Source: an uncultured Flavobacteriales bacterium (GTDB lineage Bacteria > Bacteroidota > Bacteroidia > Flavobacteriales > BACL11). Taken from it: a stretch of 64,000 nucleotides of DNA. Below the pieces are notes generated by a model. The model was given only the letters and a program-made list of their open reading frames with translations. It was not told where the DNA came from and did no database searches. The stretch covers positions 1 to 64,000 of the forward strand of contig CAJQRK010000027.1 in NCBI GenBank assembly GCA_905612305.1, in the 5' to 3' direction. A program made the position numbers and the translations under genes. This document shows, piece after piece, positions 3,091 to 14,513 of the stretch (position 1 is the stretch's first letter; each line of letters begins with the position of its first letter).

Positions 3091-4422
3091 TTATCTTTCA
3101 AAAGTGAGTCGCATTCCTCTACTGGTTTCATCAAAGCAACCATATTCATAAGCAATATGCCCATTTACTAAAGTGTGCGTAATTTGAGCATTAAATATTT
3201 CTTCTTCAAAAGGAGACCAGCCACATTTATACAAAAGATTTTTTTTGGTTACCTTCCAAGGGTTGTTTAAATCAACCAAAACTAAATCAGCAAAATAGCC
3301 TTCACGAATAAACCCTCTGTTTTTAATCTGGAAACAAATAGCTGGGTTATGACACATCTTTTCTACTAGTTTTTCTAGGCTTATTTTTCCTTGATTAGCA
3401 AAAGACAACATAGCAGGCAAAGCGTGTTGTACTAAAGGGCCTCCTGAAGGGGCATTAAAATAAGTGTTTGACTTTTCTTCCAAGCTATGTGGGGCATGGT
3501 CAGTTGCAATCACATCTAATTGATCATCTAATAAAGCTTTTAATAAAGCCTCTTTGTCTGATTGCTTTTTTATGGCAGGATTCCATTTTATAAAAGTTCC
3601 TTGTTGAGTATAGTTGCTTTCATCAAACCAAAGGTGATGAATGCAAACTTCTGCCGTAATACGTTTTTCTTTTAAGGGTAATTTATTGTCAAAAAGCACA
3701 ATCTCTTTTTCAGTTGAAATATGAAAAACATGCAAACGCGTATTGTGTTTTTTAGCCAATTCCACTGCCATTGATGATGACTTATAACAAGCTTCAACAC
3801 TTCTAATATTTGGGTGTTCAGAAATTGGAACCTCTTCACCAAATTCCATTTTTGCCTTTTTGATATTTTCCTGAATGATATTTTCATCTTCACAATGCAC
3901 CGCAATCAACATAGGAGATGTAGAAAAAATTTTTTCTAATACCTTCTTATTATCCACCAACATATTTCCTGTTGAAGAGCCCATAAATATTTTTATTGCT
4001 CCTACTGTTTTTGGATTTGTTTTTAATACTTCTTCCAAATTATCATTGCTTGCTCCCATAAAAAAAGTGTAGTTAGCAATAGAGTTTTGGGCGGCAATTT
4101 GGTATTTATCCTCTAATAATTTTTGAGTAAGTGTTTGCGGATCAGTATTTGGCATTTCCATAAAGGACGTAATCCCTCCAGCTACTGCGGCCTTACTCTC
4201 GGTATAGATATTGGCTTTGTGGGTTAGTCCAGGCTCACGAAAATGTACTTGATCATCAATTACCCCTGGCAGTAAATGCAACCCTTCTGCATCAATTATT
4301 TTATCTGCGTTAACATTTATTTCAGCATCAATTTTCTTGATTACTTTATCTTCAATTAATACATCTGATTGATAAATATCCCCTTCATTTACCAATTTTG
4401 CATTTTTAATAAGTGTTAGCAT
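3091..4422 (-). CDS. pyrC: Dihydroorotase (class I amidohydrolase type)
   Basis: Should catalyse cyclisation of carbamoyl-aspartate to dihydroorotate in pyrimidine synthesis. At 443 aa it has the typical amidohydrolase landmarks. The first metal site is LLPGVIDDQVHFREPG, the substrate loop contains EMPNTDP, a lysine lies in GAIKIFMGSS, and downstream His/Asp ligands occur in VHCEDE, HVFHIST and ATDHAPHSLEEK. The usual DxHxH is DDQVH here, so the first metal His is replaced by Gln. I believe this is common in Bacteroidota members of the family, but cannot verify it here. It lies 3 nt after the glycosyltransferase gene. Confidence 0.88.
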   Translation of the reverse strand: MLTLIKNAKLVNEGDIYQSDVLIEDKVIKKIDAEINVNADKIIDAEGLHLLPGVIDDQVHFREPGLTHKANIYTESKAAVAGGITSFMEMPNTDPQTLTQKLLEDKYQIAAQNSIANYTFFMGASNDNLEEVLKTNPKTVGAIKIFMGSSTGNMLVDNKKVLEKIFSTSPMLIAVHCEDENIIQENIKKAKMEFGEEVPISEHPNIRSVEACYKSSSMAVELAKKHNTRLHVFHISTEKEIVLFDNKLPLKEKRITAEVCIHHLWFDESNYTQQGTFIKWNPAIKKQSDKEALLKALLDDQLDVIATDHAPHSLEEKSNTYFNAPSGGPLVQHALPAMLSFANQGKISLEKLVEKMCHNPAICFQIKNRGFIREGYFADLVLVDLNNPWKVTKKNLLYKCGWSPFEEEIFNAQITHTLVNGHIAYEYGCFDETSRGMRLTFER

Positions 4423-4425
4423 TAT

Positions 4426-5157
4426 TTATCTTTTCCAGCTCATAAAGAAACTTTTGAGCTTCATTTGAATCACTCCAATTACAGCCTCAAAGAAAATTCC
4501 TCCACTCATTTTCGATTCTCCTTCGGTTCGATCAGTAAAAATTACAGGTACTTCCACTAGCTTAAATCCATACTTCCAAGCCTTGAATTTCATTTCAATT
4601 TGAAAAGCATAACCGACAAATTGGATTTTATTAAAATTGATAGTTTCCAAAACAATTCTTTTATAGCATTTAAAGCCAGCAGTAGAATCATGAATAGGCA
4701 TCCTTGTAATAAATTTCACATATTTTGATGCAAAAAAGGACATCAAAAGTCGCATCATTGGCCAGTTTACAATATTTACTCCTTTTACATAACGAGAGCC
4801 GATAGCAACCTCTCCTTCTTCTTGTGCATTGGCATTGTACAGTCTAATTAAGTCGTCAGGATTGTGTGAAAAGTCAGCATCCATTTCAAAAATAAATTGA
4901 TATTCTTTCTGAAGAGCCCATTTAAATCCATGAATGTAAGCCGTCCCTAATCCTAATTTTCCTTTGCGTTCTTCAATATGTAATTGGGAAGGAAATTCAG
5001 ATTGTACATTTTTTACAATAGTTGCCGTACCATCAGGGGAACCGTCATCAACAATAAGAATATGAAATGATTTTTCCAAAGAGAAAATCTTACGAATTAT
5101 CTTTTCAATGTTTTCCTTTTCGTTATAGGTTGGTATGATGATTAAGCTATCTGACAT
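4426..5157 (-). CDS. Polyprenol monophosphomannose synthase-like glycosyltransferase (GT2)
   Basis: Transfers a sugar, typically mannose, from a nucleotide donor to a polyprenyl phosphate at the membrane face. At 243 aa it is the single-domain DPM1 type without C-terminal membrane helices. Features are IIPTYNEKENI at the N-terminus, IVDDGSPDGT, then the donor-binding metal motif in FEMDADFSHNPDDL. GYAFQIEMKFKAW and FTDRTEGESKM are typical of the family C-terminal half. It sits between acs and pyrC on one strand. Confidence 0.9.
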   Translation of the reverse strand: MSDSLIIIPTYNEKENIEKIIRKIFSLEKSFHILIVDDGSPDGTATIVKNVQSEFPSQLHIEERKGKLGLGTAYIHGFKWALQKEYQFIFEMDADFSHNPDDLIRLYNANAQEEGEVAIGSRYVKGVNIVNWPMMRLLMSFFASKYVKFITRMPIHDSTAGFKCYKRIVLETINFNKIQFVGYAFQIEMKFKAWKYGFKLVEVPVIFTDRTEGESKMSGGIFFEAVIGVIQMKLKSFFMSWKR

Positions 5158-5192: not shown

Positions 5193-7088
5193 TTATTGTG
5201 CAGTTATTTTAATTTCCTCTACCACAGTTGGGTCTAAAAGAGTGCTGATATCTCCTAAATTATCGCTTTCTCCAGCTGCTATTTTTCGTAAAATCCGTCT
5301 CATTATTTTCCCTGAACGCGTTTTTGGTAAGCCATTTACAAATTGAATTTTATCTGCTTTGGCAATTGCTCCCACTTGTTTTGTCACCAAATCATTTATT
5401 TCTTTGCGTAAACTATCGCTATTTTCAGGAGTATTATGACAAATTACATAAGCATATATCCCATTTCCTTTAATCGGATGTGGATAGCCAACAATGGCAG
5501 TTTCACAGACATTTTTGTGCTGATCCATAGCGCTTTCAATTTCAGCAGTGCCTAAATTATGCCCTGAAACAATCAACACATCATCTACTCTTCCGGTAAT
5601 ACGATACATGCCATTTTCATCATGTAAAGCTCCATCTCCTGTAAAGTATTTATTTGCAAATACTGAAAAATAGGTATCCTTAAATCGTTTATGATTACCA
5701 TAAATAGTACGTGCTATTGATGGCCACGGGTATTTTATGCAAAGCCTTCCCTCTACGGAATTTCCTAATATTTCATTCCCTTTTTCATCTACTAGGCAAG
5801 GTTGAATTCCAGGAAGAGGAAGAGTTGCAAAAGTTGGCTTTGAGGGAGTTACTCCTGCCAAATTAGAAATCATGATTCCTCCTGTTTCAGTCTGCCACCA
5901 AGTATCTACTATTGGGCAATTATCTTTTCCGATTTCTGAGCCATACCAATGCCAAGCATCTTCATTTATAGGCTCTCCAACTGTTCCCAAAATTTTTAAG
6001 GAAGACAAATCATAAGGATTTACAAACTCCATGCCTTTTGCTTCCAAAGCACGAATGGCTGTTGGGGCGGTATAAAATATATTGACCTTATTTTCTTCTA
6101 CTATTTGCCAAAACCTTCCCGCATCCGGATAAGTTGGAATTCCCTCAAAAATCAGTGTAGTTGCCCCGGATAAAAGTGGTCCGTAAACTATGTAAGAATG
6201 ACCTGTTATCCAGCCAATATCGGCAGTACACCAATAGACATCTCCTTCAGTATATTGAAAAACATTGCGGAAAGAATATTCTGTATATACCATATAGCCA
6301 GCAGTAGAATGCTGAATTCCTTTGGGTTTTCCGGTAGAGCCGGAGGTATACAAGATAAATAGAGGATCTTCAGAATCCATAATTTCTATAGCACAACCTG
6401 CACTTGCCTTTTGCATTTCATTATGCCACCAAACATCTCTTCCTTTTTGCATTACTATCTTACTTTTTGTTCGCTCCAACACTATGCACTTTTCAATAGA
6501 GGATGTATTTTTCATAGCCTCATCTGAAATGTCCTTTAAGGCAGTAATTTTTGCACCTCTGAACCCTCCATCAGCAGTAATGAGGATATTACAAGTTGCA
6601 TCATTTATCCTATCTGCTAATGCTTTGGCAGAAAATCCTGCAAATACAACTGAGTGAACCGCTCCTATTCGAGCACAAGCCAAAACAGCAATTACCAATT
6701 CAGGCACCATGGGCATATATAGGCAGATTCTATCTCCCTTTTTAACCCCATTATTTTTTAGCACATTGGCAAATTTACAGACTTCAGTATGCAATTTTTT
6801 ATAGGACAAGCGTCTGCTTTGTTCGTTTGGATTATTGGCAATCCATTTTATTGCTGTTTGATTACCTCTTTGTTCTAAATGTCTATCTAAACAATTTTCG
6901 GTTATATTAAGCTTTCCTCCTTCAAACCATTTTACTTCTGGTTTTGTAAAGTCCCATTGCAACACAGTGTCCCATTTTTTCTGCCAAGTGAAGTTATTGG
7001 CTTTTCCTTCCCAAAATTGTTCAGGGGCATTGATGCTTTTAGCATATTCAGTTTTGTATTCTTCAAATGATGTAATGTTCTTTTCCAT
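5193..7088 (-). CDS. acs: Acetyl-CoA synthetase
   Basis: AMP-forming ligase that activates acetate to acetyl-CoA. At 631 aa it is close to the usual 650. The AMP-binding P-loop is LYTSGSTGKPKGIQHS. Further family motifs are TVGEPINEDAW, VDTWWQTETGG, YFTGDGALHDENG and the C-terminal catalytic lysine in KTRSGKIMRRILRK, which is the usual site of regulatory acetylation. It leads a likely acs-GT2-pyrC transcript and has a well-formed promoter. Confidence 0.96.
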   Translation of the reverse strand: MEKNITSFEEYKTEYAKSINAPEQFWEGKANNFTWQKKWDTVLQWDFTKPEVKWFEGGKLNITENCLDRHLEQRGNQTAIKWIANNPNEQSRRLSYKKLHTEVCKFANVLKNNGVKKGDRICLYMPMVPELVIAVLACARIGAVHSVVFAGFSAKALADRINDATCNILITADGGFRGAKITALKDISDEAMKNTSSIEKCIVLERTKSKIVMQKGRDVWWHNEMQKASAGCAIEIMDSEDPLFILYTSGSTGKPKGIQHSTAGYMVYTEYSFRNVFQYTEGDVYWCTADIGWITGHSYIVYGPLLSGATTLIFEGIPTYPDAGRFWQIVEENKVNIFYTAPTAIRALEAKGMEFVNPYDLSSLKILGTVGEPINEDAWHWYGSEIGKDNCPIVDTWWQTETGGIMISNLAGVTPSKPTFATLPLPGIQPCLVDEKGNEILGNSVEGRLCIKYPWPSIARTIYGNHKRFKDTYFSVFANKYFTGDGALHDENGMYRITGRVDDVLIVSGHNLGTAEIESAMDQHKNVCETAIVGYPHPIKGNGIYAYVICHNTPENSDSLRKEINDLVTKQVGAIAKADKIQFVNGLPKTRSGKIMRRILRKIAAGESDNLGDISTLLDPTVVEEIKITAQ

Positions 7089-7191: not shown

Positions 7192-8112
7192 ATGAAAAAA
7201 ATATTACTACTAATTATTACTTCTTTTGCGATAAATTTAAACGCGCAGATGGTTACTTGTACTGAATTATTTATTTCAGAATATATTGAAGGCCCTGCAC
7301 AGAACAATGCGATTGAAATTTATAACCCTACAAATTCATCCATTAATCTTGGTGGATACACTATAAATAGATATAGCAATGGAGCAAGCTCTGGACCTGA
7401 ATCATGGCAATTAGGAGGGGTAATTGCTTCTGGGCAGGCAATTGCAGTTGGTAACGGGCAATTAGATTCAATTGACCTAGGAACTTATTGGTCTGTTCCT
7501 GTAGACCCTGTCTTTTTTTCTTTGCTTGATTATCATTGTAATGGTGATTATAATACAAATTCAACATTTTATTTTAATGGAAATGATGCAATGACTTTAG
7601 AAAAATCTGGAAATATTATTGATATTTTCGGTAAAGTTGGAGAGGATCCAGGAAACGCTTGGACTGATGATGCAACTGCAGGATATACTGATGCAAATGG
7701 TGGGACTTGGTGGACAAAGCGTCAAACTTTGGTGAGAAAATCTTCTGTAAAAAAAGGGGTCATCACGAATCCTATTTTATTTAACCCTACATTAGAGTAT
7801 GATTCATTGCCAGATGCAACTTATAGCGGAATGGGTTCTCACACTTGTGATTGCATTAGCATTGGTACTAGCATAGATGAGAATGCAATTTCGTATGTTA
7901 TGTATCCTAATCCTGCAAATATTGGGAGTACAGTTACAATAAATTCAAATGCAAAAATTGAGAGTATTGATGTTGTAAATATTTTAGGAGAAAAAGTATT
8001 TACTCAAATCTCAAATAAAATTCTTACTACTAATTTAGCAAGAGGAACTTACATTATTAATATTCGATTTACTGATGGAAGAATTATTAATAATAAGTTA
8101 ATTATTGAATAA
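7192..8112 (+). CDS. Secreted lamin-tail domain protein with T9SS sorting domain
   Basis: 306 residues from the ATG at 7192. The ORF-track start, 12 codons earlier, would bury the signal peptide MKKILLLIITSFAINLNAQ. The first domain is lamin-tail-like: LFISEYIEGPAQNNAIEIYNP followed by NLGGYTINRYSNG. The C-terminus is a type A T9SS sorting domain (MYPNPANIGSTVTI, ILGEKVF, ARGTYIINI, KLIIE), so the protein should be exported by the type IX system. Lamin-tail domains often accompany extracellular nucleases or phosphatases, but no catalytic domain is visible here. It ends in a terminator before the receptor gene. Confidence 0.88.
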   Translation: MKKILLLIITSFAINLNAQMVTCTELFISEYIEGPAQNNAIEIYNPTNSSINLGGYTINRYSNGASSGPESWQLGGVIASGQAIAVGNGQLDSIDLGTYWSVPVDPVFFSLLDYHCNGDYNTNSTFYFNGNDAMTLEKSGNIIDIFGKVGEDPGNAWTDDATAGYTDANGGTWWTKRQTLVRKSSVKKGVITNPILFNPTLEYDSLPDATYSGMGSHTCDCISIGTSIDENAISYVMYPNPANIGSTVTINSNAKIESIDVVNILGEKVFTQISNKILTTNLARGTYIINIRFTDGRIINNKLIIE

Positions 8113-8135
8113 TTAAATAAGTATAAACAATGAAG

Positions 8136-8163
8136 ATGCTGATGGAAACATCAGCATTTTTTT
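8136..8163 (+). terminator. Intrinsic terminator after the lamin-tail gene
   Basis: Perfect 9-bp stem ATGCTGATG/CATCAGCAT with GAAA tetraloop, then a T run. Confidence 0.88.
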
Positions 8164-8176
8164 CGGATTAAGATAT

Positions 8177-10984
8177 ATGAAAAAGGTAAGCGTTCTATTA
8201 GTTGGAATTTTATTAAGCATGGCGTCTTTTTCCCAAACTACTTTAAGTGGAAAAGTGGTTGATGCTAATACAGGAGAATCCTTAATTGGCGCAACTATTG
8301 TTTATGGTAAAGGAATGGGGACAGCTACTGATATTGATGGAAACTATACTATTCCAATTCATTCAGGAGAAAGAAGCATACAAGTTTCTTATGTGGGCTA
8401 TAAAGCAATAAATAAAGTGATAGTAATTGGAAATAAGCCTCAAGTTTTGGATTTTAAACTAAAAACCATCTTGCTAAATGAAGTGCAAGTAGTAGCTGAT
8501 ATCGCTCGCGACAGAGAAACTCCTGTTGCCTTTTCAACTATTCCTATTAAAAAGATTCATGAGGAATTGGCATCACAAGATATTCCTATGATACTTAATT
8601 CTACTCCAGGGGTTTATGCTACACAAAGCGGTGGTGGTGATGGAGACGCTAGAATTACAATAAGAGGTTTTAATCAGAGAAATGTAGCCGTAATGATTGA
8701 TGGAATTCCAGTGAATGATATGGAAAACGGATGGGTATATTGGTCCAATTGGTTTGGTTTGGATGCTGTAACTTCAAAGATTCAAGTACAAAGAGGTCTT
8801 GGAACTTCAAAAATTGCTATTCCGTCAGTTGGTGGAACAATGAATGTTTTAACAAAAGGAACTGGAAATATAGCAGAAGGAATAATAAAGCAAGAAGTTG
8901 GATCATTCGGGAAATCAAGAACATCATTGGGTTATAATTCAGGAAGATTAGAAAATGGCTGGGGCTATACTTTGGCTGGATCTTATAAAAAGGGAAATGG
9001 ATTTGTGGATGAGACTTGGAGTGAAGGATTCTTTTATTATGCGAAAATTCAAAAAGAATTAGGAAATCATATTTTGAGCTTATCAGCTATGGGGGCTCCA
9101 CAAAAACACGGACAAAGATCTTATAAAAGTGATATAGCAACTTACGACACTTCTTTTTCTCGTTCATTAGGAGATACTTCTAATTTTTCTGCAAGAATTG
9201 TAAATAAAGGAATTGCCTTTAATAAGCATTGGGGTTATTTAGATAGATGGACTATTAATTCAAGCGGAGACACAATTCATGCTAATGAAACATTGAATAC
9301 TAAACAAAATTATTATCACAAACCTCAGTTTTCATTAAGAGATTTCTGGACAGTGAATGATAAGTTTTATGTTTCAAATATTTTTTATGCTTCCATTGGG
9401 CATGGTGGCGGAACAGGATTAAGTGGCAATACAGAGAATTATGAAGAAAGAGGGCAATATAATTTACAAGAGGCTTATAATTCCAATAGTAATAATATTG
9501 ACGCTTTGTATTCTGATGTTGAAAATAAAGCAGGAACTTACCTAAGAAGTTCCATCAATAATCATTTTTGGTATGGCGGGTTAACAACTTTAAATTATCA
9601 AAAAACAGATGAAATATCAATTTCTGGAGGATTGGATATACGTTATTATAAAGGGCAGCACTATCGTGAGGCATATGATTTATTAGGAGCAGATTATGCT
9701 ATTGATAATACTAATGGGATGCAAGAATCTCAGGTAAAAAGAGTAGGAGATAAGCTTGGTTATCATAATGAAGGACTGGTAAAGTGGAGTGGTGTTTTTT
9801 ATCAAGTAGAACATAATGATGGAGTTATAAGTACATTTTTAAATATTTCAGCTTCTAATTCAGCATACAAAAGAATTGATTATTTCAGAAAGAAAGATTT
9901 AGTTCTTGACGACACTACTTATCATGAAGTATTAGGGACTTCTGTTGCAACTGAACTTGAATTTAATGATAATGGAACTTTAATTGGAGCACATAAAACA
10001 ATGATTGAAGATACCATTTGGCATAACGGGAAAGCTTACACTATGAATTCAGATGAAGCAAAATTAGCTGAAACTAACTGGAAATGGATAAGAGGTTATA
10101 CAATAAAGTCAGGCGCAAATATTAATTTGGATGAATATAACAATGTGTTTTTTAATGTAGGATATATTTCAAAAGCACCAAGATTTAATAATGTATATTA
10201 TTATGACAACTCACTATTTAGAAATATCAAAAATGAAGAAGTAAAAGCAGTTGAAGGAGGATATTCTTATCGCTCATCATTATTTTCAGCTAATGTAAAT
10301 GCTTACTATACTGCCTGGCAGAATAAACCATCAAATGGGGGCGTTACAGTTACGGTGGATGATGTTCCATATAGAGCAAATATAAACGGAATGGATGCAT
10401 TGCATAAGGGGGTTGAAATGGATTTTTCATATAGAATTTTAAACAATCTAAGTGTTGAAGGCTTGCTCTCATTAGGTGATTGGCAATGGACATCTGCAGA
10501 TACTGTGAGGTTTTTGGATGATAATAATAATCCGATTACTGATGACTTTGGCAATGAGATAATTGCAAGTTTTGATGCTGATGGTGTGCATGTTGGAGAT
10601 GCTGCACAAACGCAATATGGTTTGAGCGTAAGATATGAACCAACATATGAATCATATATAAAGTTAAGAGGAACCTATTTTGATAATTACTATGCTGATT
10701 TTGATCCATTATCATTAAATGGAGCCAATGCTGGTAGAGAAAGCTGGAAAATCCCAGCATATCAATTAGTAGATTTGCATTGTGGATATAAGTTCAAATT
10801 ATCAGATAAGAATAAATTAGATATACGATTTAGTGTATTGAACTTACTGGATGAAATATATATTTCAGATGCTCAGAATAATGACCCTTATAATGCAAAT
10901 TATCAAGATTTTGATGCTAAATCGGCAGGTGTATTTTTTGGTTTAGGAAGAAGATTTAATCTATCGGCAAAATTCAGTTTTTAA
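8177..10984 (+). CDS. TonB-dependent outer membrane receptor
   Basis: 935-residue outer membrane importer. After a signal peptide (ending ASFSQ) comes a carboxypeptidase-regulatory-like domain (LSGKVVDANTGESLIGATI). The plug follows (STPGVYATQSGGGDGDARI, IRGFNQRNVAVMIDGIPVND), then a long beta-barrel ending in an aromatic residue (RFNLSAKFSF). Barrel-forming repeats and GLGRRFNL are as expected. It lies between two T9SS-exported proteins and has a 19-nt gap to the downstream enzyme gene, so it may import products they release. The substrate is unknown. Confidence 0.93.
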   Translation: MKKVSVLLVGILLSMASFSQTTLSGKVVDANTGESLIGATIVYGKGMGTATDIDGNYTIPIHSGERSIQVSYVGYKAINKVIVIGNKPQVLDFKLKTILLNEVQVVADIARDRETPVAFSTIPIKKIHEELASQDIPMILNSTPGVYATQSGGGDGDARITIRGFNQRNVAVMIDGIPVNDMENGWVYWSNWFGLDAVTSKIQVQRGLGTSKIAIPSVGGTMNVLTKGTGNIAEGIIKQEVGSFGKSRTSLGYNSGRLENGWGYTLAGSYKKGNGFVDETWSEGFFYYAKIQKELGNHILSLSAMGAPQKHGQRSYKSDIATYDTSFSRSLGDTSNFSARIVNKGIAFNKHWGYLDRWTINSSGDTIHANETLNTKQNYYHKPQFSLRDFWTVNDKFYVSNIFYASIGHGGGTGLSGNTENYEERGQYNLQEAYNSNSNNIDALYSDVENKAGTYLRSSINNHFWYGGLTTLNYQKTDEISISGGLDIRYYKGQHYREAYDLLGADYAIDNTNGMQESQVKRVGDKLGYHNEGLVKWSGVFYQVEHNDGVISTFLNISASNSAYKRIDYFRKKDLVLDDTTYHEVLGTSVATELEFNDNGTLIGAHKTMIEDTIWHNGKAYTMNSDEAKLAETNWKWIRGYTIKSGANINLDEYNNVFFNVGYISKAPRFNNVYYYDNSLFRNIKNEEVKAVEGGYSYRSSLFSANVNAYYTAWQNKPSNGGVTVTVDDVPYRANINGMDALHKGVEMDFSYRILNNLSVEGLLSLGDWQWTSADTVRFLDDNNNPITDDFGNEIIASFDADGVHVGDAAQTQYGLSVRYEPTYESYIKLRGTYFDNYYADFDPLSLNGANAGRESWKIPAYQLVDLHCGYKFKLSDKNKLDIRFSVLNLLDEIYISDAQNNDPYNANYQDFDAKSAGVFFGLGRRFNLSAKFSF

Positions 10985-11003
10985 TAAATAAAATATAAAA
11001 AGA

Positions 11004-13127
11004 ATGAAAAAAATAACAACATTAATTTTTGCAACTTTATTCAGTGTCGTAGGGTTTTCACAGGCGAATATTGCAGCTGCAAGAGCTCAAGGAGTAGGAT
11101 CAACTGTAACGATTACTGGAGTTGTAACTAATGGAGATGAACTTGGTCCAATTCGATACATTGAAGATGCAACAGCAGGATTAGCATTATATGACCCAAC
11201 TATTTTAAGTGGAGTTGTAAGAGGAGATGAGGTTACTGTTAGTGGAATTCTAGTTGATTATAATGGACTTATGGAAATGACTCCTGTTAACACAACTACA
11301 ACAAATTCAAGTGCTAACTCCGTTTCCCCACAACTGATTACACCAATACAAATTGGAGAACTAACAGAATCAGAACTTATACAAATTAATAATGTAATTT
11401 TTAATAGTGGAGGATCTTTGTTTACGGCAGGGACGCATGATTTTACTTCTAATGCAGAAATAGGCAAAGTATACATAAGATTGGGTAGCCCGCTAGAAAA
11501 CTCATTAATTCCTATGGGCCTAGTTACGTTAATAGGAATATCTTCACAATACACTTTTTCAACCCCAGCCAATGATGGCTACCAAATTCTCCCAAGAGAT
11601 TCATCTGACATTATACAAACAGGGGCTTTAATATTTACTTCTGCGGTGTCGCAAACTAATATTACAACAACAAGTTTTGATTTATCTTGGAGTGTTTCAG
11701 ATTCCTCCACTACTAATTGTAATTATGGATTATCTACTTCATTAGGAACTCCTATAAATAATATAGGAAATAGCCTGACACACACCGTAAATTTAACAGG
11801 ATTACAGCCTGCTACTTTTTATTATGTGGAGTGCTATTCTGTAAATGGAAATGATACAGCTTTTTCAAATGTTGGAATTTATTCTACTGCATCTAATTCC
11901 TCAGGGCTTATTCGCCCTTATTTTAATCATTCTGTAGATGTATCAGTATCCACTGGCGTTGATGCTCAAAACATTACCACCACTTTTAATGATACGATTA
12001 AAGCGTATATGGATTTAGCTCAAAACACATTGGATATTTGTGTGTATAATGCTTCAGATGCGACTATTGCTACTGCCATCAATGACGCTTATAATAGAGG
12101 AGTTGTAGTGAGATATATTGCGGATGATGATGTAACAAATATAATGTTAAGTAGTTTGGATCCAAATATTCCTATTGTGTATCGTGATCCTGCTCCGGCA
12201 GGAATTATGCATAATAAATTTATTATTGTAGATGCAAATTCAACCAATAATTCTTGGGTAATGGGCGGCTCAACAAATTGGACAAATCCTTCAAATTTAT
12301 TCAATGATTACAACAATCTTATTTTTATTCAGGATGAAGCAATTGCAAAAGTATACACTTTGGAATTTGAAGAGATGTGGGGGGGGGTTTTTGGACATAA
12401 TAAGTTAGATAATACCCCTCATAACTTTAAAGTTAATGGGAAAGATGTTGAAGTGTATTTTTCTCCTTCAGACCAAACAACCTCACGTATTTCAGAATTT
12501 ATTAATGAGGTAGATTATACCTTAGAATTTGGGATTTTAAGTTTTACTAGAGATGATCTTGGACTTGCTGTAATTGCAAAAGATGGCGAATTTGGAGTAA
12601 ATGTAAGGGGGATAGTTGAGCAAGAAAATGTTACCGGCAGTGAATTTGCAGAGTTAATAGCTGCAGGGGTCAATGTTAAATCCCATACGGGAGTTACTTA
12701 CCAGCTCCACCATAAATATGCTATTGCTGATGCAAATGCAATTGCTTCTGATCCAACAATATTAACAGGCTCTCATAATTGGAGTAGTAATGCAGAAAAC
12801 AATTCTGATGAGAATACAATTGTTATTCATGATGCTACTATTGCTAATATCTATTTGCAAGAATTTACAGAGCGTTTTAACGAGTTAGGATCTTCTGGAA
12901 TTGATGAATTGATTAATGTAGAAGTATCCGTTTTCCCAAATCCATCAGCAGGAAAAGTGGAGGTAAAAAGCGACTTATTTATTCAGCAAATTAATTTGTA
13001 TGCAGTAGATGGAAAATTAATTACAACAACAACTGATGCCATTTTAGATATTAAAACAAAAGGCATTTATTTTATTAAGATAATTACTGAACAAGGAATT
13101 TCAGTTAAGAAAATAGTGATTGAATAA
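11004..13127 (+). CDS. T9SS-exported phospholipase D-fold enzyme (two HKD motifs)
   Basis: 707 residues. Signal peptide (VVGFSQ), then an OB-fold-like segment with GSTVTITGVVTNGDELG and a lamin/nuclease-associated look. A fibronectin III-like domain follows (TSFDLSWSVSDSSTTNCNYG). Two phospholipase D half-sites are present: MHNKFIIVDANS with GSTNWTNPSN, and HHKYAIADANA with GSHNWSSNAENNSDEN. Both keep the HxK(x4)D pattern, so an active phosphodiesterase (nuclease or phospholipase) is likely. The C-terminus is a T9SS type A domain (VFPNPSAGKVEV, GIYFIKI). A G9 run (near 12379-12387) lies inside the gene. Confidence 0.88.
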   Translation: MKKITTLIFATLFSVVGFSQANIAAARAQGVGSTVTITGVVTNGDELGPIRYIEDATAGLALYDPTILSGVVRGDEVTVSGILVDYNGLMEMTPVNTTTTNSSANSVSPQLITPIQIGELTESELIQINNVIFNSGGSLFTAGTHDFTSNAEIGKVYIRLGSPLENSLIPMGLVTLIGISSQYTFSTPANDGYQILPRDSSDIIQTGALIFTSAVSQTNITTTSFDLSWSVSDSSTTNCNYGLSTSLGTPINNIGNSLTHTVNLTGLQPATFYYVECYSVNGNDTAFSNVGIYSTASNSSGLIRPYFNHSVDVSVSTGVDAQNITTTFNDTIKAYMDLAQNTLDICVYNASDATIATAINDAYNRGVVVRYIADDDVTNIMLSSLDPNIPIVYRDPAPAGIMHNKFIIVDANSTNNSWVMGGSTNWTNPSNLFNDYNNLIFIQDEAIAKVYTLEFEEMWGGVFGHNKLDNTPHNFKVNGKDVEVYFSPSDQTTSRISEFINEVDYTLEFGILSFTRDDLGLAVIAKDGEFGVNVRGIVEQENVTGSEFAELIAAGVNVKSHTGVTYQLHHKYAIADANAIASDPTILTGSHNWSSNAENNSDENTIVIHDATIANIYLQEFTERFNELGSSGIDELINVEVSVFPNPSAGKVEVKSDLFIQQINLYAVDGKLITTTTDAILDIKTKGIYFIKIITEQGISVKKIVIE

Positions 13128-13178: not shown

Positions 13179-14513
13179 TTACATTTCAAAGGATTCCATA
13201 AATTTTGTTGTATAATTTCCTGCTCGGAAATTTTCATCCTTCATTAGTTTCTGATGAAAAGGAATTGTTGTTTTTACTCCCTCAATAATAAATTCATCTA
13301 ATGCTCTTTCCATTTTTGCAATTGCCTCCTTTCTTGTTTGTGCAACTGTAATTACTTTTGCAATCATTGAGTCATAAAATGGAGGAATCATATAGTTTGC
13401 ATAAACATGTGTATCAATTCTGACTCCGTGACCCCCTGGTGCATGAAAGTTAGTTATCAGCCCAGGGCAAGGCCTGAAATCATTTTCAGGATCTTCCGCA
13501 TTAATTCTACACTCAATAGCATGCAATTTAGGATAATGGTTTTTCCCAGATATTTCAATTCCAGCAGCCACTTTAATCTGTTCTTGTATCAAATCATAAT
13601 CGACTACCTCCTCAGTAATTGGGTGCTCTACTTGAATACGCGTATTCATTTCCATAAAGAAAAAATCTCTGTGCTTGTCAACTAAAAACTCAACAGTCCC
13701 AACTCCTTCATATTTTACTGATTCAGCAGCCATAATAGCAGCTTCCCCCATTTCTTCTCTCAATTTTTTAGTCATAAACGGAGAAGGAGTTTCTTCAGCT
13801 AATTTTTGATGTCTTCTTTGAATTGAACAATCTCTTTCAGAAAGGTGTGCGGCTTTTCCTGTACGGTCACCAATAATTTGAATTTCAATATGCCTAGGAT
13901 CTTCAATGAATTTTTCCATATACATGCCATCATTTCCAAAGGCCGCTTTTGATTCTTGACGCGCACTATTCCAAGCATCTTCTAAATTTCCCTCATCCCA
14001 AACCAAACGCATTCCTTTCCCTCCCCCACCTGCGGTTGCTTTAAGCATTACAGGATAACCAATTTCTATAGCTAATTTTTTGCAAGTTTTAAAATTAGGG
14101 ATTATACCTACAGAACCTGGGATAGTTGGAACACCAGCTTTTTTCATTGTTTCTTTGGCAGAAGCTTTGTCTCCCATTCCATCAATCATTTCAGCAGATG
14201 CTCCAATAAATTTAATGTTATTCTCACTGCAAATTTTTGAAAAATTAGAATTTTCAGCCAAGAATCCATAGCCAGGATGGATAGCATCAGCATTAGTAAT
14301 TTCAGCAGCTGCAATAATATTAGGAATCTTTAAATAGGATGCGGAGCTTGCTGCGGGACCAATACAAACAGCCTCATCAGCAAATCGGACATGTAAACTA
14401 TCTTTGTCAGCTGTAGAATAAACGGCCACAGTTTTTATTTCCATCTCTTTACAAGTGCGGATAATACGCAATGCAATTTCTCCTCTATTGGCTATTAGGA
14501 TTTTCTTAAACAT
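13179..14513 (-). CDS. accC: Biotin carboxylase subunit of acetyl-CoA carboxylase
   Basis: ATP-dependent carboxylation of biotin on AccB, the first step of fatty acid synthesis. 444 aa, full length. Visible are the N-terminal [17 protein letters not shown], the glycine-rich ATP loop [14 protein letters not shown], the metal/ATP-grasp segment [19 protein letters not shown] with its catalytic arginine, and the family C-terminal domain (YDSMIAKVI). It is the last gene of the yceD-rpmF-plsX-fabH-accB-accC run, 22 nt after accB. Confidence 0.96.

Follow-up and report, generated by a model that had tools for sequence, protein, structure and literature searches.

What is the role of a TonB-dependent receptor (TBDR) whose gene lies between the genes of two secreted surface proteins, and which substrate do the three products share? 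This question is raised by positions 7192-13127 of the window, i.e. the stretch of 64,000 nucleotides analysed here, which comes from an uncultured Flavobacteriales bacterium (contig CAJQRK010000027.1). The three genes of this trio are all located on the plus strand, separated by gaps of 64 and 19 bases, and are enclosed by two housekeeping genes on the minus strand. The features are:

5193-7088, minus strand: acs, upstream flank of the trio
7192-8112, plus strand: LTD gene, encoding a T9SS-exported lamin-tail-domain (LTD) protein of 306 aa
8132-8161, plus strand: intrinsic-terminator-like hairpin between the LTD and TBDR genes (13-bp stem, GAAA loop, T-run, -17.4 kcal/mol)
8177-10984, plus strand: TBDR gene, encoding a TonB-dependent outer-membrane receptor of 935 aa
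11004-13127, plus strand: PLD gene, encoding a T9SS-exported predicted nuclease of 707 aa
11058-11639, plus strand: tandem OB-fold-like N-terminal domain of the PLD protein (AlphaFold2, Foldseek and DUF5689 in relatives)
11904-12911, plus strand: tandem PLD (HKD) catalytic domains (Pfam, alignment of relatives and predicted structure)
12210-12233 and 12708-12731, plus strand: HKD motifs
13179-14513, minus strand: accC, downstream flank of the trio

A sequence-only reading of this DNA had proposed two T9SS-exported proteins on either side of a TBDR, and the open reading frames and their Pfam and NCBIfam domains bear this out. Our analysis adds that the PLD protein has a tandem OB-like (DUF5689-type) domain at its N-terminal end, and that a terminator-like hairpin lies 3' of the LTD gene. 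The LTD and PLD proteins have signal peptides, with hydrophobic N-termini ending in AQ/SQ, and C-terminal sorting domains of T9SS type A cargo (PF18962/TIGR04183), both above the curated cut-offs. Given these signals, both proteins should sit on the outer face of the outer membrane. The T9SS translocon SprA was found in 11 of the 14 genomes of the window's genus, including all four near-complete ones, and a 5'-nucleotidase in 13 of the 14. The window's own genome bin (1.33 Mb, 75% complete) yielded neither SprA nor a 5'-nucleotidase, and there is no 5'-nucleotidase gene around the window's trio. Since both are present in the genus, their absence from the bin is likely due to missing sequence.

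The LTD protein consists of a Lamin Tail Domain (residues 24-148, E 1.7e-14) and a T9SS type A sorting signal (residues 237-305, E 1e-7). Its best NCBIfam match was the N-terminus of the extracellular nuclease ExeM (E 1e-18). However, the ExeM model NF033680 matched in the LTD part only, with 66.9 bits against a cut-off of 1300, and a Pfam domain search found no EEP domain; hence, the protein is not an ExeM with LTD and EEP on a single chain. The receptor has a CarbopepD_reg_2 extension (residues 23-105, E 6e-17) and a TonB Plug (PF07715; residues 112-220, E 6e-14). No Pfam barrel model matched its C-terminal part, whose length and C-terminal Phe fit a barrel. It is closest to receptors of other Flavobacteriales MAGs. 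Receptors elsewhere in the order with E-values of 1e-80 to 1e-130, mostly over the first half only, were set aside as other receptors; they are not accompanied by an LTD gene. A SusD-like gene is absent from the trio, and none was recognised among the listed neighbours of the relatives' loci, so that the locus does not classify as SusCD, PUL or PUS.

In the PLD protein, the OB-like domain is followed by Fn3, the tandem PLD catalytic domains and the sorting signal (residues 643-706); Pfam reported two PLDc_2 stretches (E 1.4e-35) plus fn3. Both HxKxxxxD motifs that define the PLD superfamily are intact (HNKFIIVD and HHKYAIAD), as had been noted from the sequence alone. Their H, K and D are invariant across 35 aligned relatives, and the sites are intact in all full-length PLD relatives. 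The best NCBIfam family was the nuclease NucT (E 2e-18), and among PDB sequences the catalytic domains matched best with MitoPLD/Zucchini (mitochondrial cardiolipin hydrolase) and also with the endonuclease 1byr. The predicted structure of the tandem PLD part (pLDDT 91.5) matched phospholipase D (nearest 7e0m) as well as the exonucleases PLD3/PLD4 with ssDNA, and the fold therefore does not settle the substrate. The OB-like domain was predicted with a pLDDT of 93 and a pTM of 0.88. Its best Foldseek matches in the PDB were HIN-200 DNA-binding domains, which are tandem OB folds, YgiW and RPA. These matches were partial, with a whole-domain TM below 0.5, and we therefore claim OB-like modules but no homology to HIN. 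DUF5689 scored above the Pfam cut-off in relatives L106, L136 and L152, in the PLD proteins of the close relatives G030, G045 and G048, and in Endonuclease I versions of the locus (see below); for the window's own PLD protein the Pfam search did not report it, and the choice-of-anchor J part is absent. The LTD, OB and PLD domains are all very acidic (pI 4.0-4.4). Nucleic-acid binding by simple charge is thus unlikely, and metal ions or specific contacts would be needed. Taken over motifs, families and relatives, the prediction that the PLD protein is a nuclease hydrolysing phosphodiester bonds in DNA and/or RNA outside the cell is strongly supported.

We surveyed 52 genomes of the window's family, and found the trio in the same order in about 34 genomes with the PLD form and in six with an Endonuclease I form. 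We also analysed 80 public loci from a species-level genome collection, which were picked solely by receptor similarity and in which genes were called afterwards. An LTD gene upstream and a nuclease gene adjoining the receptor were present in 65 of these loci (36 PLD and 29 Endonuclease I). The other 15 mostly ended at a contig end, or had only the N-terminal domain of the nuclease before that end; in one complete locus the third gene encoded an OB-type T9SS protein only (L125), L178 lacked both partners and L185 lacked the nuclease. In 77 public loci the upstream side of the receptor gene was uncut, and 74 of them had an LTD gene there. In contrast, 23 control loci with less similar receptors had an LTD gene in none and Endonuclease I in three. 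The association of LTD protein, TBDR and nuclease is far beyond chance. Its hosts include Flavobacteriales, Bacteroidales, Saprospiraceae and Crocinitomicaceae, with Brumimicrobium oceani (L155) as one cultured carrier from the environment, and the trio is old within Bacteroidia. Whether the three genes occur together elsewhere had been put forward as a check of the sequence-only reading; they do so across Bacteroidota, with order and orientation kept.

One complete genome labelled Glaciecola amylolytica THG-3.7 (CP034120.1; L171) has an LTD-TBDR-Endonuclease I-5'-nucleotidase locus. It also has a full SprA gene, and the record therefore looks like a mislabelled Bacteroidota genome. Horizontal transfer to Gammaproteobacteria was ruled out by SprA and by the position of the receptor among Crocinitomicaceae-like ones on the tree. 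In three loci (L104 4015-5670, L105 1338-6461 and L107 5096-10756), LTD domains (71% and 58% identical) or OB domains (75%) of this system were found within large surface proteins that also contain SprB, Omp28, fasciclin or BNR domains; either the domains were shuffled recently or the assemblies are chimeric. Three Flavobacteriaceae-like loci (L203, L204 and L206) have a related receptor, followed by a lipoprotein-like protein of 372-566 aa, without a Pfam match in L204, and an Endonuclease I protein. These loci may represent the same principle in a parallel form that relies on a lipoprotein.

The main evidence on the substrate comes from the third gene. In the six family genomes without the PLD gene, its position is occupied by the gene of a 713-aa T9SS Endonuclease I protein (PF04231, Endonuclease_1, E ~1e-27), which has no similarity to the PLD protein save the sorting signal. 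Among these six, G047 is a member of the same genus as the window, and its locus is likewise flanked by acs and accC. The E-H motif of Endonuclease I was present in 47 of 49 sequences. On a tree of 85 receptors, the PLD or Endonuclease I label changed ten times, of which at least six changes were forced by supported branches; within the window's family, the label changed three times, and at least twice. Accordingly, the PLD gene is replaced in place, repeatedly and non-orthologously, by an unrelated Endonuclease I gene. The OB-like domain is common to PLD versions and, in other lineages, to Endonuclease I versions, which implies that the domain stays while the catalyst changes. Furthermore, the LTD is fused to the nuclease in L123 and L175, and additional Endonuclease I genes occur in L130 and L167. 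In 14 public loci, a pair of 5'-nucleotidase genes (a PF02872 lipoprotein and a PF00149 protein) lies directly downstream. Two phosphodiesterases of unrelated families with nucleic acid as a common substrate have thus been swapped, and this, together with the downstream 5'-nucleotidases, points to nucleic acid and not to phospholipid. The sequence-only reading had left the choice between DNA, RNA and phospholipid; with the LTD/OB-nuclease fusions as further evidence, the reading is supported and its choice narrows to nucleic acid, phospholipid being disfavoured.

The hairpin behind the LTD gene recurs in the relatives. A terminator-like hairpin was found in 29 of 88 gaps between the LTD and TBDR genes, where shuffles gave an expectation of two. 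Between the TBDR and nuclease genes, 2 of 82 gaps had one. When only gaps of at least 35 bases were considered, these counts became 27 of 53 versus 2 of 21. The LTD-TBDR hairpins of different loci are unrelated in sequence. We expect the hairpin to raise LTD transcripts above those of receptor and nuclease. A candidate hairpin 3' of the PLD gene was no better than shuffles and was rejected.

We propose that the trio is probably a nucleic-acid utilisation locus, with a probability of roughly 0.7. The surface nuclease would cut extracellular DNA or RNA at its tandem PLD sites, with the OB-like domains in front, and in many relatives the unrelated Endonuclease I, encoded at the equivalent position, would take over this task. 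The LTD and OB domains would hold the nucleic acid. The LTD protein, probably made in excess via the hairpin, may hold the polymer or dock on the receptor, and would thus correspond to the SusD of sugar loci. The TonB-driven receptor would bring the oligonucleotides or nucleotides so released into the periplasm. Afterwards, a 5'-nucleotidase could free phosphate and nucleosides; some relatives encode it next to the trio, and genomes of the window's genus at another place. In this way, bacteria with small marine genomes would gain phosphate, nitrogen and nucleobases. DNA and RNA outside cells are major reservoirs of phosphorus and nitrogen in water and sediment, and the literature searched holds no description of how Bacteroidota bring nucleic-acid breakdown products in. 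The trio names a testable receptor family for nucleic-acid fragments and a likely role for LTD and DUF5689 domains, and with its exchangeable nucleases it could serve as a gene marker for nucleic-acid foragers.

We read the trio as a form of TonB-dependent utilisation locus, and its combination of LTD protein, TBDR and nuclease is new in the literature searched. The sequence-only reading knew of no described system with this set, and our search of openly accessible, published papers likewise found none. Izemoplasmatales are a wall-less, TonB-free lineage, unlike the hosts of the trio. They do have DNA-degradation loci that resemble it in clustering LTD, nuclease and uptake genes: a large protein with LTD, nucleic-acid-binding and nuclease parts is encoded together with probable nucleoside transporters (PMC8289736). 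The same study names sediment Bacteroidota among the main DNA degraders, and never mentions TonB. The phosphate utilisation systems of Flavobacterium (PUS, PusCD loci) also cluster TonB-dependent outer-membrane uptake genes with phosphoesterases and serve organic phosphorus scavenging (PMC8115612). However, they comprise SusC/SusD pairs and periplasmic phosphatases or phosphodiesterases, whereas the trio has an LTD protein, no SusD and a surface nuclease. Flavobacterium LTD-Endonuclease I fusions (EndA1/EndA2) are induced by phosphate depletion and listed as orphan genes (PMC8115612). ExeM of Shewanella and Vibrio (NF033680; PMC6085458) also combines an LTD with a nuclease outside the cell; the trio differs in that its LTD is a separate protein, its catalyst is PLD or Endonuclease I, export is by T9SS and a TBDR lies in between. 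In Riemerella anatipestifer, a TBDR-like gene (RA0C_RS04915) adjoins a gene for a DUF5689 surface protein (RA0C_RS04920), and each is essential for transformation (PMC8459023). This pair resembles the trio in that a TBDR-like barrel adjoins a surface protein with DUF5689, or in the trio a putative DUF5689-type domain, and in the probable nucleic-acid cargo. In contrast, its receptor is only remotely related, its partner has a choice-of-anchor J part and no catalytic domain, and there is no LTD gene.

The Riemerella pair suggests another use of the trio, namely DNA uptake for natural transformation, in which the receptor imports strands for ComEC, the surface proteins present the DNA, and the nuclease nicks or trims it. 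The order of TBDR and then DUF5689 is the same here, with the nuclease inside the DUF5689-type protein; one locus (L268) has the Riemerella pair type beside an EEP nuclease gene; and TonB mutants of Riemerella are also non-transformable, one perhaps through iron (PMC8383284). Yet the Riemerella-type receptor, where detected, matched at E 1e-18 to 1e-38 only, while other receptors in those genomes reached 1e-80 or better, which also rules out that the window's receptor is its ortholog. Moreover, a strong nuclease with downstream 5'-nucleotidases suits degradation better than uptake of intact DNA, and we consider transformation unlikely. It is about equally improbable that the nuclease acts on biofilm, slime or trap DNA and that the receptor has a different role and is merely co-transcribed. 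Non-nutritional roles are credited to LTD nucleases such as ExeM (PMC6085458), but throughout Bacteroidia the receptor is wedged between both surface genes, and nucleotidases join the locus.

Two further explanations appear very unlikely. T9SS signals suffice for export, both neighbours of the receptor carry them, and other T9SS cargo has no such partner, all of which argues against a receptor that acts as export or assembly factor for the two proteins, like Oar for PopC in Myxococcus. A TBDT needed for protein secretion is nevertheless known (PMC6434023). Scavenging of phospholipid, by a surface phospholipase D and a receptor for head groups or phosphatidate, would agree with the PLD fold and with 7e0m as the closest structure. 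It has little to commend it given that the sequence relatives are NucT, Nuc and Zucchini/MitoPLD, that 29 public loci and six family genomes encode an Endonuclease I instead of the enzyme, and that an OB-like domain and 5'-nucleotidases are present.

Within nucleic-acid utilisation, cutting is well supported, and the LTD protein as surface partner and the import of fragments by the receptor are inferred. A bolder version is possible, although we rather doubt it: a Bacteroidia-wide TBDR family might actively transport oligomers of DNA or RNA through the outer membrane, the LTD protein acting as its SusD, and the Riemerella transformation receptor would be a distant cousin that applies the same principle to intact DNA. 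If true, this family would help to explain how nucleic acids pass the outer membrane of Bacteroidota; among the genes found by the transformation screen in Riemerella, none belonged to a known uptake machinery for the outer-membrane step. Across loci L262-L276 (e.g. L268 8953-14660), the Riemerella-type pair of a TBDR and an M949_1556-family DUF5689 lipoprotein often has a divergent Exo_endo_phos_3-type nuclease gene adjoining it.

Beyond acs, at 3091-5157 of the window, lie genes for a dihydroorotase (NF006688, E 7e-220) and a DPM1-like glycosyltransferase. About 34 of 97 receptor loci have these two genes as neighbours of the trio, upstream and divergent in Flavobacteriales, and downstream and codirectional in Bacteroidales; none of 23 loci of other receptors has them. 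They are probably old synteny and not parts of the system; a pyrimidine link is less likely.
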